Part shown: positions 26,452 to 31,654 of the stretch, piece after piece
Layout of the letters: every line of letters starts with the position of its first letter
How positions within the stretch are numbered: the stretch's first letter is position 1
Assembly: GCA_946616385.1 (NCBI GenBank)
Contig: CAMOIZ010000002.1
Span: 1 to 32,929, forward strand
Length of the DNA: 32,929 nt
Reading direction: 5' to 3'
Origin: an uncultured Bacteroidales bacterium
Lineage (GTDB): Bacteria > Bacteroidota > Bacteroidia > Bacteroidales > UBA932
Notes under the pieces: generated by a model
Seen by the model: the letters and a program-made list of their open reading frames with translations, nothing else
Told to the model about the DNA's origin: nothing
The model's database searches: none
Position numbers and translations under genes: made by a program

Positions 26452-27186
26452 ATGGACGCCCCTATCGTAGAACAGAACCTTGTCATCAACAGTTACGAAT
26501 CCGACCTTAACGCAAACATCAAGGCCGTCAGCCTGCAGAATCTGCTGCAAGAAGTTGCATACAGGGGTTCGGAGTTCTGCCATTGCGGACCTTCGGAAAT
26601 GAACCGCCGAGGCATCTTCTGGGCGCTGAACCGCATTCATTTCCATATATACGATTATCCGAGATGGGAAGATCATGTCGTGCTTCAGACATGGTCCCGC
26701 GGACAGGTCGGGCCCTTGTGGCACAGGAATTTCAGGATGCTCCGACCGGACCGGAAAGGAGAACCTATGGTGCTGGGCACATCTGCATGGACAGTCGTAG
26801 ACCTGAATGAACGGAGTATTTTCCGCGGAGACCTTGGGTTCGACAGCGCATTCCACCATTCCGAGGACACACTCCCCTTCTGCTCGAAAATAATCGTGCC
26901 GAAAGGCCTGGAAGCCATCCCCTCCGGCTCGCACCAGGTCCAATGGTCAGATCTGGACACCAACGGGCATGCGAACAACTGCGCCTACACCCAGTGGGTA
27001 CTGGACCTGCTTCCCTTCGATTACATGAAAACGCATCGTGTGAGAGACGTTCAGGTCAATTACCACCACGAGGTGCATTATGGCGAGAACGTGGATTTCT
27101 TTATAAGCCGCACAGACAACACGTGGTACATCACCGGCAAGGCCGGCGATCTTCTGTGTTTCGTCGAGAAGCTGGAATTCGATTAA
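26452..27186 (+). CDS. Acyl-ACP thioesterase
   Basis: Hydrolyses acyl-ACP to free fatty acid and ACP. The 244-residue protein consists of two hot-dog halves. The first has EVAYRGSEFCHCGPSEMNRRGIFWALNRIHF and the second has WSDLDTNGHANNCAYTQWVLD. The latter carries the conserved DxNxHxNN pattern: Asp169, Asn171, His173 and Asn175. Bacterial acyl-ACP thioesterases of this family resemble plant FatA/FatB. The ATG directly follows the fabZ stop with no gap, so translation is likely coupled. The stop codon overlaps that of glpC on the opposite strand. Confidence 0.9.
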   Translation: MDAPIVEQNLVINSYESDLNANIKAVSLQNLLQEVAYRGSEFCHCGPSEMNRRGIFWALNRIHFHIYDYPRWEDHVVLQTWSRGQVGPLWHRNFRMLRPDRKGEPMVLGTSAWTVVDLNERSIFRGDLGFDSAFHHSEDTLPFCSKIIVPKGLEAIPSGSHQVQWSDLDTNGHANNCAYTQWVLDLLPFDYMKTHRVRDVQVNYHHEVHYGENVDFFISRTDNTWYITGKAGDLLCFVEKLEFD

Positions 27187-28382
27187 TACTCGAGCGCTTC
27201 AGCCAAGATTTCAACAGGATTGAGCACGGTTTTTCCCGTGCTCATTTCTATTTGCCACTTGCAGGTTTCGCAGTCCGTGGCCACCACATCGGCTCCGGAG
27301 GACTCGATGTCGGAGAAAAGCTTGCCGCCTATTTCCTGAGACCACTCATAGTTCTCTTTCTTGAAACCGAAAGTGCCAGCGATTCCACAGCAGTTCTGAT
27401 CGAGAACGGTCAGTTCCAAGCCGGGTATCATTTGAAGCATTGCGATGGAATAAACCTGCCAACCCATTTTCTGCATGTGGCAGGCCGTATGATAAACCAC
27501 CTTCATTCTGAAGTCTTTACGGAACTTCAGCTTCACTTCTCCTTCAGATATCTTTTCGTAGAGCCATTTTGTCGCCAGCATGAGTGAATCACGGACATCC
27601 TCATTCCTCAGTCCGAGCACGTCGGCATATTCGTCGCGCATGGTAAAAGTGCAAGTTGACGAGGTGGTCAGCACTTGTTCCCCGGCAGCGACTGCCTTTC
27701 GCATCGAAGCGAGATTCACTTCACCCTGACTGCGGGCCTTGTCGGCAAAACCGTTGCTCATGAGTGCCACGCCGCAACATTTTTCCTTCTCGAGCTTATG
27801 CACGCCGTAGCCCGCCGCATTCATCAGTTTCACAAAGGCCTTGCCGAGTTCAGGATAATTGTAATTGACGTAGCAGCCATGGAAATAAGACACATACTTG
27901 TCGAAGCCGCTTTGGTCTTGTTTACGGAACCAGGAGCTGAATTTCCTTGAACTGTAGGCAGGGAAAGTGCGGTTTTTGTGAACACCGAGCACCCCGTGCA
28001 TTACGGCCTTCACCGGTTTCATTTTAAGAACCCCGTTCACTACCGGCGCAATAGGAGAAGCCACGCTTCCCACGAGGTCGGTGGAGGCAAGTGCCCAGTC
28101 GCGCAGGCCGTTGCGACCGCGAATATGGGCCTGGGAGCCATATTTGATGCGTGCAGACTGTATCATGTCGCCGATGTGAACATCCGAAGGACACGCAACC
28201 TCGCATCGCTTGCAATTCAGGCAGTATTTCAGGGCATAGTCGAAGAATGCCGGATCCTTAAGACGGTAGCGTTCCCCGTCCGGGCCGGCCTTCTTGGGGC
28301 CGGGATACGCAGGATTCACCTCCATCATGGGGCACACCAACGTGCAAAGGTTGCACTTCAGGCATTGTTCAAGATTATTCAT
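27183..28382 (-). CDS. glpC: Anaerobic glycerol-3-phosphate dehydrogenase subunit C
   Basis: The iron-sulfur subunit that passes electrons from GlpAB to the membrane quinone pool. The 399-residue protein has two [4Fe-4S] ferredoxin motifs: Cys7, Cys10, Cys13, Cys17 and Cys54, Cys57, Cys60, Cys64. Two CCG domains follow (FHGCYVNYNYPE with EKCCGVAL, and HTACHMQKMGW with QNCCGIAG). The start overlaps the glpB stop as ATGA, so the gene is the last of rmlB-glpA-glpB-glpC. No clear terminator follows. The TAA stop overlaps the thioesterase stop by four bases. Confidence 0.92.
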   Translation of the reverse strand: MNNLEQCLKCNLCTLVCPMMEVNPAYPGPKKAGPDGERYRLKDPAFFDYALKYCLNCKRCEVACPSDVHIGDMIQSARIKYGSQAHIRGRNGLRDWALASTDLVGSVASPIAPVVNGVLKMKPVKAVMHGVLGVHKNRTFPAYSSRKFSSWFRKQDQSGFDKYVSYFHGCYVNYNYPELGKAFVKLMNAAGYGVHKLEKEKCCGVALMSNGFADKARSQGEVNLASMRKAVAAGEQVLTTSSTCTFTMRDEYADVLGLRNEDVRDSLMLATKWLYEKISEGEVKLKFRKDFRMKVVYHTACHMQKMGWQVYSIAMLQMIPGLELTVLDQNCCGIAGTFGFKKENYEWSQEIGGKLFSDIESSGADVVATDCETCKWQIEMSTGKTVLNPVEILAEALEY

Positions 28383-28936
28383 AGTTTACCAAGATCAGAT
28401 TGAGGATATCCTTCCGCCACAATCTCTCCTACAGCAAGCAGGTTGCCCACAACGGCTCCGCCTGCAAGCACAAAACCGTCCGGAGAAGTCTTTACTCCGT
28501 ATTTCATGAACGGCTGCGGCTTATTGAAATCGGGATCGTACCATTTGCTGCGGTCCGGATCATATTCAACATCAGCTCCGAACACCGGCTCCCATATATG
28601 CTCTTTGTCGGACAGCAAGCCTCGGGAGAAGAATTTGCCCGTTGCCAGTACAAACCGGTCGGCCTGCAGCGCATCATCGCCCAGATTCCGGGTATGCACT
28701 GATTTCACCCGCCCGTCTTCGATCAAGGCGCCTACGGCACGATCGCCACGAAGGACGGTCACGCCTCTGCGCTGGAGTTCCGCCAGCCGGGCATAAGGCG
28801 TAGCGGATCCGCTCACGGAAAGAGAAAGACCTTCCGACACGATGGCCACCTTCAGGCCGGAATCGCAAAGTTGTGCAGCGGCCGAACATCCTGCCCAGCC
28901 GCCTCCTATTATCACGACATCAAATTTCATTGCCAT
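28379..28936 (-). CDS. glpB: GlpB-like flavoprotein subunit, strongly shortened
   Basis: Position between glpA and glpC, and sequence similarity, identify anaerobic glycerol-3-phosphate dehydrogenase subunit B, but this form has 185 residues against 419 in E. coli. It keeps the N-terminal dinucleotide-binding motif (VVIIGGGWAGCSAA, residues 7-20), then resumes at a segment equivalent to the last third of GlpB: RFVLATGKFFSRGLLSD (94-110), EPVFGADVE, WYDPDFNKPQPFMKYGVKT (132-150) and NLLAVGEIVAEG. The middle (about 230 residues) and the last roughly 30 residues are missing. The frame is open and overlaps both neighbours (17 bases with glpA, or 11 if the third codon is the start; 4 with glpC), so it seems to be a maintained gene and not debris. 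Confidence 0.8.
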   Translation of the reverse strand: MAMKFDVVIIGGGWAGCSAAAQLCDSGLKVAIVSEGLSLSVSGSATPYARLAELQRRGVTVLRGDRAVGALIEDGRVKSVHTRNLGDDALQADRFVLATGKFFSRGLLSDKEHIWEPVFGADVEYDPDRSKWYDPDFNKPQPFMKYGVKTSPDGFVLAGGAVVGNLLAVGEIVAEGYPQSDLGKL

Positions 28937-30458
28937 CGACTTTATGCATATATTCGGCTTCGCGCAAGGTGTCTCCCCAAAGCACAGGAGTCATGCCTTT
29001 CCAACGTTCCTGCCTGTATTCATATACAAGTTCATCTGCGGATGCCTCCACATACTCCGCGAGCACGCGAGCCACTTTACGGATGCAGAAAGAGCCCTGG
29101 CAGGTGCCCATTCCGATACGGGTATGCCTGCGCAGATCGGAGATATTCCTGACACCGAAGTTCTTCACGGCATATTCGATCTCGGCCCTCGTAACATTCT
29201 CACACTCACAGAGAATCTCTCCGCCTTTCTCAAAATCCATCTTGCCGATCTCGGTGCCATGCCTTCCTATGGCCGCCCTTTTGTTGAACGGGTCCTTGAA
29301 TCCGGGTTTCCTGCCTTCGGAGCCCGGCAGAGGCCGATTTGCCGTCTCGCAGACAGCAGTTGAACCGAGTTTGCGGCAGATCAGGTCCGTCGCCATCTCC
29401 GCCATCAGACGGGCAGTGGTAAGTTTTCCTCCCGTAATTGTGATGAGTCCGGGCACACCGTCGCGCTCCTCGTGGTCGAGCAGCACTATGCCGCGGCTCA
29501 CGTTGCGCCCGTCTCCGGCAGGATCGGCCACAACCAGAGGACGCACTCCGGCATAGGCGCGTATTATGCGCGTACGGGCAAGAGAAGGCACCAGCTTCTC
29601 TCCTTCCCGCATCAGCAGATCCACCTCGGCGGGAGTGGCGTGCATGTCGTCGCATGCGTCCATGGGGACTTTGTCGGAAGTGGTACCAAGTACGCTCACC
29701 ACATCCCCGGGCACAAGTATATCGGCATTGGCAGGTTTTCGGCAGCGGTTGATCACCATGTTCGCAACCCTGTGTCCATATATCACAAGGGCCCCCTTGC
29801 TGGGCATCATGCCAATCCTGACTCCGGCAGCGGCTGCAATATCCGCAGTCCATATTCCTGCTGCCAAAACCACCTCTTTGGCACGCAGTACATCGCCTTT
29901 CGAGGTCTTCACACCAACCACGCGCCCATCTTCCTTTACCAGAGAAGCCACCGCGGTGAATTTAAGGATCTCCGCGCCATGCCTCTGGGCGTCGAGAATA
30001 TGGGCGTCTACCAGACGGAAAGGATCCACCGCAGCATCGGGCACTTTTACGGCACCGATAATCGCCGGATTGATTGCCGGCTCCATCCTAAGTGCCTCGG
30101 CAGGATCTATGGCCTGAGCGTCGATTCCGGCTTCCCTGCATTTGGCAATGAAATTTGCCTGATAATCCAGGCCATCTTCCGGAAGAGAAATGAAAAGACC
30201 ATCCGTCGGTTCCACGCAGTTGGAAGCTATGCGGCGCAGGATGCGGTTCTCGCGTATGCATTCTTCGGCTCCTTCCCTGTCGGTCACTGCGTAGCGTGCG
30301 CCGCTGTGAAGCAGGCCGTGATTGCGTCCCGATGCTCCGTCGCAGATATCCCCGCGCTCTATCAGAAGCGACGAGAGACCGCGCAACGCACAGTCTCTCA
30401 ACGTGGCGGCGCCAGTGATGCCACCGCCTATTATGATAACATCATATTCTTTCTGCAT
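28920..30458 (-). CDS. glpA: Glycerol-3-phosphate dehydrogenase subunit A
   Basis: The catalytic FAD subunit that oxidises glycerol-3-phosphate to dihydroxyacetone phosphate. It has 512 residues. The FAD-binding GGGITGAA motif is at residues 11-18, followed by ASGRNHGLLHSGARY (42-56) and ITGGKLTTARLMAEMA (341-356), all typical of GlpA/GlpD. A C-terminal BFD-like [2Fe-2S] domain carries Cys417, Cys419, Cys453 and Cys458 (LCECENVT, GTCQGSFC), which distinguishes anaerobic GlpA from aerobic GlpD. The gene starts four bases after the rmlB stop and overlaps glpB. The last roughly 30 residues past the iron-sulfur domain (KGMTPVLWGDTLREAEYM) also resemble family C-termini. Confidence 0.94.
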   Translation of the reverse strand: MQKEYDVIIIGGGITGAATLRDCALRGLSSLLIERGDICDGASGRNHGLLHSGARYAVTDREGAEECIRENRILRRIASNCVEPTDGLFISLPEDGLDYQANFIAKCREAGIDAQAIDPAEALRMEPAINPAIIGAVKVPDAAVDPFRLVDAHILDAQRHGAEILKFTAVASLVKEDGRVVGVKTSKGDVLRAKEVVLAAGIWTADIAAAAGVRIGMMPSKGALVIYGHRVANMVINRCRKPANADILVPGDVVSVLGTTSDKVPMDACDDMHATPAEVDLLMREGEKLVPSLARTRIIRAYAGVRPLVVADPAGDGRNVSRGIVLLDHEERDGVPGLITITGGKLTTARLMAEMATDLICRKLGSTAVCETANRPLPGSEGRKPGFKDPFNKRAAIGRHGTEIGKMDFEKGGEILCECENVTRAEIEYAVKNFGVRNISDLRRHTRIGMGTCQGSFCIRKVARVLAEYVEASADELVYEYRQERWKGMTPVLWGDTLREAEYMHKVDGNEI

Positions 30459-30462
30459 TCAG

Positions 30463-31602
30463 TTATCTCCCCTTGTACATGTCGTCGTAATACTTCTGGT
30501 AGTCACCGGAAGTTACGTTGTCCATCCACTCCTGATTGTCGAGATACCAACGGACGGTCTTCTCGATGCCTTCCTCGAACTGGAGACTGGGCTCCCATCC
30601 AAGTTCGCGCTGGAGTTTTGAGGAATCGATCGCATATCGGAGATCATGCCCGGCGCGGTCGGTTACGTATGTGATCAGATCCATATCGGCGCCTTCCGGA
30701 CGTCCGAGCAAGCGGTCCACAGTGGCAATCAGCACCTTTATGATGTCTATGTTTTTCCACTCGTTGAAACCGCCGATATTGTAGGTATCCCCCACCTTGC
30801 CCTCATTGAAGATCAGGTCGATCGCGCGGGCATGGTCTTCAACATACAGCCAGTCGCGCACATTCTCGCCCTTTCCGTAGACCGGAAGGGGTTTGCGGTG
30901 ACGTATATTGTTGATGAACAGAGGAATAAGCTTCTCGGGGAACTGATAAGGGCCGTAATTATTAGAGCAGTTCGTAACGATTGTAGGCATTCCGTAGGTG
31001 TCGTGGAATGCGCGTACGAAATGGTCGGAAGAAGCCTTGGCGGCACTGTACGGGCTGTGCGGCTGATACTTGAGGTCTTCCGTAAAGAACTTCTCGCCAT
31101 AGGCAAGATGGTGTTTTCCGGAGGAAGCCTTGGTCGTGAACGGAGGTTCGAGTCCTTCGGGATGAGTCATTTCGAGAGCTCCGTAAACCTCATCCGTGGA
31201 GATGTGATAGAAACGTTTTCCCTCGTACTTTTCCGGCAGGCTTTCCCAATAGAGTTTCGCCGCCTGAAGCATGCTGAGGGTACCCATCACGTTCGTACGG
31301 GCGAAAGTGAACGGGTCCTTTATGCTGCGGTCCACATGGCTCTCGGCTGCGAGATGGATCACTCCGTCAACCTTTTCTTCCTGCATCAGGGCGTAAATAG
31401 TATCGAAGTCGCAGATGTCCGCCTTTACGAAGCGATAATTGGGAGCGTTCTCGATATCCTTGAGATTTGCCAGATTCCCGGCATAAGTCAGTTTGTCGAC
31501 ATTGATAATCCTGCAGTCAGGATATTTGTTCACGAAAAGACGCACGACATGGCTTCCGATGAAACCTGCGCCGCCAGTGATGATTACTGCCTTGTGATTC
31601 AT
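30463..31602 (-). CDS. rmlB: dTDP-glucose 4,6-dehydratase
   Basis: Converts dTDP-glucose to dTDP-4-keto-6-deoxyglucose, the second step of dTDP-L-rhamnose synthesis. The 379-residue short-chain dehydrogenase-fold protein has the NAD-binding GGAGFIGSH motif near its start, LTYAGNLANL, HLAAESHVDRSI, the active-site STDEVYG and the catalytic YSAAK. ATG 31602 is chosen over the longer frame to 31626, because it begins the first beta strand and lies 21 bases after the promoter box. It heads the minus-strand unit ending with glpC, and no rmlA, rmlC or rmlD is nearby. Confidence 0.95.
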   Translation of the reverse strand: MNHKAVIITGGAGFIGSHVVRLFVNKYPDCRIINVDKLTYAGNLANLKDIENAPNYRFVKADICDFDTIYALMQEEKVDGVIHLAAESHVDRSIKDPFTFARTNVMGTLSMLQAAKLYWESLPEKYEGKRFYHISTDEVYGALEMTHPEGLEPPFTTKASSGKHHLAYGEKFFTEDLKYQPHSPYSAAKASSDHFVRAFHDTYGMPTIVTNCSNNYGPYQFPEKLIPLFINNIRHRKPLPVYGKGENVRDWLYVEDHARAIDLIFNEGKVGDTYNIGGFNEWKNIDIIKVLIATVDRLLGRPEGADMDLITYVTDRAGHDLRYAIDSSKLQRELGWEPSLQFEEGIEKTVRWYLDNQEWMDNVTSGDYQKYYDDMYKGR

Positions 31603-31623
31603 TCCAAATTGGTTAAGTTTCCA

Positions 31624-31654
31624 CAAATATAACTAATAATTCCCGACGTTCAAA
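31624..31654 (-). promoter_or_regulatory. Promoter of rmlB-glpABC
   Basis: On the minus strand TTTG (31654-31651), 19 bases, then TATATTTG (31631-31624) matches both consensus elements. It is one of the best promoters in the window. ATG 31602 follows after 21 bases. Confidence 0.75.

Follow-up and report, generated by a model that had tools for sequence, protein, structure and literature searches.

A shortened GlpB without its central domain in the glpABC operons of one Bacteroidales family

What is left of GlpB when more than half of it is missing, and does the remainder still serve the GlpABC complex? The question is raised by a 32,929-nucleotide stretch of DNA from an uncultured Bacteroidales bacterium (contig CAMOIZ010000002.1; hereafter the window), in which a very short glpB gene, here called mini-glpB, lies between intact glpA and glpC genes (Table 1). 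GlpABC is the anaerobic glycerol-3-phosphate dehydrogenase, a respiratory enzyme. GlpA pairs with GlpB in an active, soluble dimer for which GlpC serves as the anchor, and electrons are proposed to reach GlpB from the BFD-type Fe-S domain of GlpA (PMC11962113). GlpB is the least understood of the three subunits. The complex itself is known, while the short GlpB is new; our literature searches, which covered open-licence papers, found no report of it.

The NCBIfam profile TIGR03378 (GlpB, 419 positions) matched the window ORF, which opens with ATG, with an E-value of 3.3e-42 and 145 bits. This confirms the first-pass annotation, which had read the sequence as a GGGWAG motif directly followed by the final third of GlpB. 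Profile positions 273-393 pair with residues 54-174, a separate N-terminal stretch also matches, and the protein lacks approximately 230 positions in the centre and 26 at the C-terminus, close to the 230 and 30 residues estimated in that annotation. What is retained is the N-terminal flavin-binding beta-alpha-beta unit (~39 aa) joined to the last third of the protein; there is no counterpart of the conserved NALHFSSGSF segment located after beta-2 in full-length GlpB, and of the three parts of a complete GlpB (a central domain between an N-terminal flavin unit and a C-terminal flavin part) the central one is missing. Because it is too short, mini-GlpB falls below the curated equivalog cut-off of TIGR03378 (145 vs 174.15 bits) although its homology is clear, and annotation cut-offs miss such proteins. 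It passes the gathering score of Pfam FAD_binding_2 (PF00890, GR2-type; 73.4 vs 20.4 bits). Common descent with full-length GlpB is supported by the alignment, which extends across all retained parts, and by the trees described below.

Table 1. Features of the mini-glpB locus in the window.
Feature	Coordinates	Strand	Description
glpB-mini	28379..28936	-	185 aa; single-domain, cap-less GlpB
GGGWAG dinucleotide/flavin-binding motif	28889..28906	-	residues 11-16; positions 11-13 with 91-100% conservation across the 35 rows of the main mini clade
Junction/linker	28775..28819	-	residues 40-54; site where ~230 central GlpB residues are gone
ATGKFFSRG segment	28619..28645	-	residues 98-106; matches ATGSFFSKG of full-length GlpB
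NLLAVGE, C-terminal strand	28424..28444	-	residues 165-171; N165 and G170 do not vary in either mini or full-length GlpB
glpA	28920..30458	-	FAD catalytic subunit of 512 aa; BFD [2Fe-2S] domain at the C-terminus; 17-bp overlap with glpB
glpC	27183..28382	-	399 aa; two each of [4Fe-4S] motifs and CCG domains; 4-bp overlap with glpB

Both neighbours are full-length in the profile search of the window (GlpA, E 3.9e-216; GlpC, E 1e-168). The first-pass annotation held that the gene is kept within the operon by overlapping glpA and glpC in frame. Its place in the operon is borne out, as glpB lies between glpA and glpC in one operon in the window and at nearly all other mini loci, but at both overlaps the two genes use different frames, a usual arrangement in coupled genes, the overlap with glpC having the form ATGA. 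A second in-frame ATG at position 28930 (MKFDV...) corresponds to the start that would be used in most homologues. A dTDP-glucose 4,6-dehydratase-like gene (30463-31626, minus strand) ends 4 bp upstream of glpA, so that glpABC may be co-transcribed with this sugar-nucleotide gene.

The window belongs to a fragmented assembly that is 53% complete, and a short gene in such a genome could stem from faulty assembly or binning, or from an in-frame deletion in one strain. We consider the chance of this negligible, given that the same architecture is present in independent assemblies of many species. Among 399 genomes of the window's family, whose members come from gut and rumen, about 38, the window's own included, encode the short form, and its recurrence in genomes of four genera (g1, g3, g16 and g17) rules out a deletion confined to one strain or assembly. 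These proteins are 170-207 residues long and share a common architecture: ~39 N-terminal residues, a variable linker and the last third. The form was also found on contigs of other rumen Bacteroidales (L031-L034; L031 and the G384 contig are one identical contig). Two further loci, L045 and L051, were left out, as their apparently short GlpB proteins are longer forms cut at contig ends. Several genes in the set were split over two or more frames (glpC in L020, glpA in L069, and glpA, glpB and glpC in L037), which represents frameshifts or sequencing errors.

Approximately 100 other genomes of the family encode a longer GlpB, mostly of 370-432 aa, and lesser shrinkage of the central part is seen among them (to ~375 aa in many cases and to 296 aa in L049/L050). 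Outside the family, no mini-GlpB was detected in 393 genomes of the order or in a phylum-wide sample of 396 genomes; every match in other families of the order was full-length, with an open frame of 417-432 codons, as was the sole other match in the phylum sample. Since GlpB is full-length (413-432 aa) both in other families of the order and in Pasteurellaceae, a length of ~420 aa is ancestral. Closely related genomes with a full-length glpB at this locus would, according to the first-pass annotation, point to a deletion specific to the strain or the assembly. Long glpB genes do occur in other species of the same genera, but within a different GlpABC lineage, and the close operon relatives of the window are all of the mini type.

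A GlpA+GlpC tree of 75 rows grouped 35 mini operons, including that of the window, in one clade (SH-aLRT 98), and six g17 mini operons in a second clade, in which the junction sequences differ. Two clearly independent origins, at which this quick tree and the six junctions hint, were not supported by the AU test or by the GlpB tree. When all 41 mini operons were constrained together, the likelihood was slightly better and one origin was not rejected (AU test, p 0.564); in a GlpB tree built from the retained columns, a branch supported at 92/92 separated the mini forms from all others. A single origin of the mini form is the simplest reading of these trees. The mini operons of g3 and g16 are nested within those of g1 in the GlpA+GlpC tree, so the mini operon does not track genus lines, and it has likely been transferred between genera. 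The excision probably occurred once, at most twice, within one Bacteroidales family, after which the operon would have diversified and spread between genera. The ~375-aa and 296-aa proteins sit elsewhere in the GlpA+GlpC tree, which indicates separate reductions; the partial loss of the central domain in L049/L050 is one such separate event.

Estimates of dN/dS in close pairs were 0.06-0.21 for mini-GlpB, 0.04-0.19 for longer GlpB, and 0.03-0.13 for GlpA and GlpC of mini operons, all of them rough ratios since dS is near saturation in several pairs. Could mini-glpB be a decaying gene that is retained merely through translational coupling? It is shortened, it overlaps both neighbours, and within most mini operons it is somewhat more relaxed than glpA and glpC, but all 41 mini sequences are free of frameshifts and stops, dN/dS is well below 1 in every pair estimated, and identity falls to ~40% while the residue pattern stays fixed. 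Decay is thus very unlikely, and the open frames and dN/dS values rule out a pseudogene. Judging from these comparisons, mini-GlpB is kept by purifying selection across many species. The first-pass suggestion of a lineage-specific minimal subunit is supported by its presence in about 38 genomes of one family, its single clade, the selection acting on it and the preserved operon.

In the main mini clade, residues G11-G13, G36, G58, D65, A92, G100, G106, E116, P117, F119, D122, W132, Q141, G147, N165 and G170 are 91-100% conserved, and the near-invariant residues are also shared with full-length GlpB. The partner subunits show little sign of compensation: just six clade-specific positions were found in GlpA and GlpC at the 80% level, and the main mini clade has acquired no extra domain in either protein. 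Every mini operon preserves the four BFD cysteines of GlpA, and the 35-row mini clade is invariant at each cysteine of the window GlpC. Four related sequences have a degenerate GxGxxG motif (GGDPKD in L027, GGDSAD in L029, GGDRCD in L041 and GGGQGD in L048), and their operons retain all Fe-S cysteines of GlpA and GlpC.

It should also be asked whether another gene provides the missing centre in trans. A query of the 224 central residues from a sister GlpB yielded nothing at E<=1 in 11 genomes with the mini form (completeness of 94% or more in five), against a match with E 5.5e-151 in the control genome. At this threshold, which a strongly diverged homologue might escape, a centre encoded elsewhere is ruled out at the sequence level in these 11 genomes, and we regard supply in trans as highly improbable. 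An AlphaFold model of the window protein, computed from six sequences (pLDDT 73, pTM 0.79), has one cap-less domain with a strand-helix-strand unit, a helix, and strands at 60-63, 67-73, 76-82, 89-98, 155-158 and 161-169, in the strand order of the GR2 flavin fold; the conserved FFSRGL loop was modelled at pLDDT <50. The NLLAVGE strand is presumably in contact with the flavin, as we take from established knowledge of this fold. Foldseek returned 659 PDB matches to the model at E<=0.001, those listed being mostly FAD-binding proteins, GR2-type among them, with modest TM-scores of 0.38-0.53. Full-length GlpB was modelled poorly (pLDDT 61, few sequences), and we set aside the fold matches of that model; a PDB sequence search with full-length GlpB found no significant relative. 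In this poor model, the elements shared with mini-GlpB flank a helical/alpha-beta middle. Altogether, these results place the loss in the central domain and show the flavin domain to be retained. Removal of the whole central (cap/inserted alpha-beta) domain and of the C-terminal tail would leave one flavin-binding domain.

Mini-GlpB is probably a functional, derived GlpB with a single flavin domain that works with GlpA, most likely as an electron relay to GlpC and menaquinone. A preserved flavin domain and two intact Fe-S partners together point to such a stripped-down relay; flavin binding is predicted from the sequence, and passage of electrons through the protein from analogy with known GlpABC. 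Glycerol-3-phosphate would be oxidised on the FAD of GlpA and the electrons passed to its own [2Fe-2S] domain; the flavin of mini-GlpB would most likely accept them, from where they would move via the [4Fe-4S] clusters in GlpC to menaquinone. If about 38 species can drop half of GlpB yet keep the complex, the part that is needed would be the flavin domain and a few invariant residues, and both the role of the central domain and that of GlpB as an electron relay become testable in a small protein.

A possible though rather unlikely alternative is that mini-GlpB is a flavin-free structural or assembly adaptor and that electrons pass directly from the [2Fe-2S] cluster of GlpA to GlpC. The broken GxGxxG in the four-member subclade, where GlpA and GlpC are intact, is better explained by such an adaptor than by a relay, and the absence of cap, SSG segment and C-terminal helix, together with the faster evolution of mini-GlpB than of GlpA and GlpC, also fits an adaptor. 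However, GGG, ATGxFF and the C-terminal strand hardly vary among most of the mini sequences, and three genomes keep the protein where there is nothing to bridge. These are the g17 genomes G232, G227 and G269 (83, 89 and 60% complete), which carry mini-glpB with no adjoining glpC and in which no glpC was found elsewhere; at the corresponding loci (L043, L044 and L047), mini-glpB is followed instead by genes that resemble an antiterminator and a UDP-sugar dehydrogenase. The dN/dS of mini-GlpB in these genomes is still 0.12-0.15. The first-pass proposal of a bridge between GlpA and GlpC is therefore supported in part: bridging is not the sole role of mini-GlpB, and its tie to GlpA appears more basic. 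A more specific version of the relay, doubtful at present, takes mini-GlpB as a minimal flavin relay that works chiefly with GlpA, less with GlpC, and which, in G232, G227 and G269, with their NadD-fused GlpA (see below) and no GlpC, would perhaps form a soluble glycerol-3-phosphate dehydrogenase feeding another acceptor.

Compared with GlpB of known GlpABC systems (TIGR03378; E. coli, Pasteurellaceae and most Bacteroidales having it), mini-GlpB has the same glpA-glpB-glpC position and shares the N-terminal GGG, LATGxFFSxG, EPxFxxDV...W...F...Q and the N-L-x-A-x-G strand; it differs in its size (170-207 vs ~370-432 aa, less than half the usual) and in having neither the central domain nor the GCGAGVAI-type C-terminal helix. 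The intermediate GlpB proteins of the same family resemble it in their operon and in their shortened central part, but keep most (~375 aa) or part (296 aa) of the central domain. The fold search also gave precedents for a solitary short flavin-fold domain, Thermus TTHA0370 (180 aa, PDB 2cvj) and a GidA-related protein (225 aa, PDB 2cul), neither of which has sequence kinship to GlpB or, to our knowledge, belongs to a respiratory complex. In GlpA-CoxG of Sulfolobus acidocaldarius, GlpB and GlpC are replaced by an unrelated anchor (PMC11962113); the partners of GlpA are exchangeable or reducible in both cases, while the mini operon keeps a reduced GlpB.

Finally, a NadD-like nicotinate-nucleotide adenylyltransferase (PF01467) is fused in frame ahead of GlpA in L039, L040, L043, L044, L046 and L047 (genomes G275, G189, G232, G227, G245 and G269, respectively), and the fused copy is the only NadD match in all six genomes.
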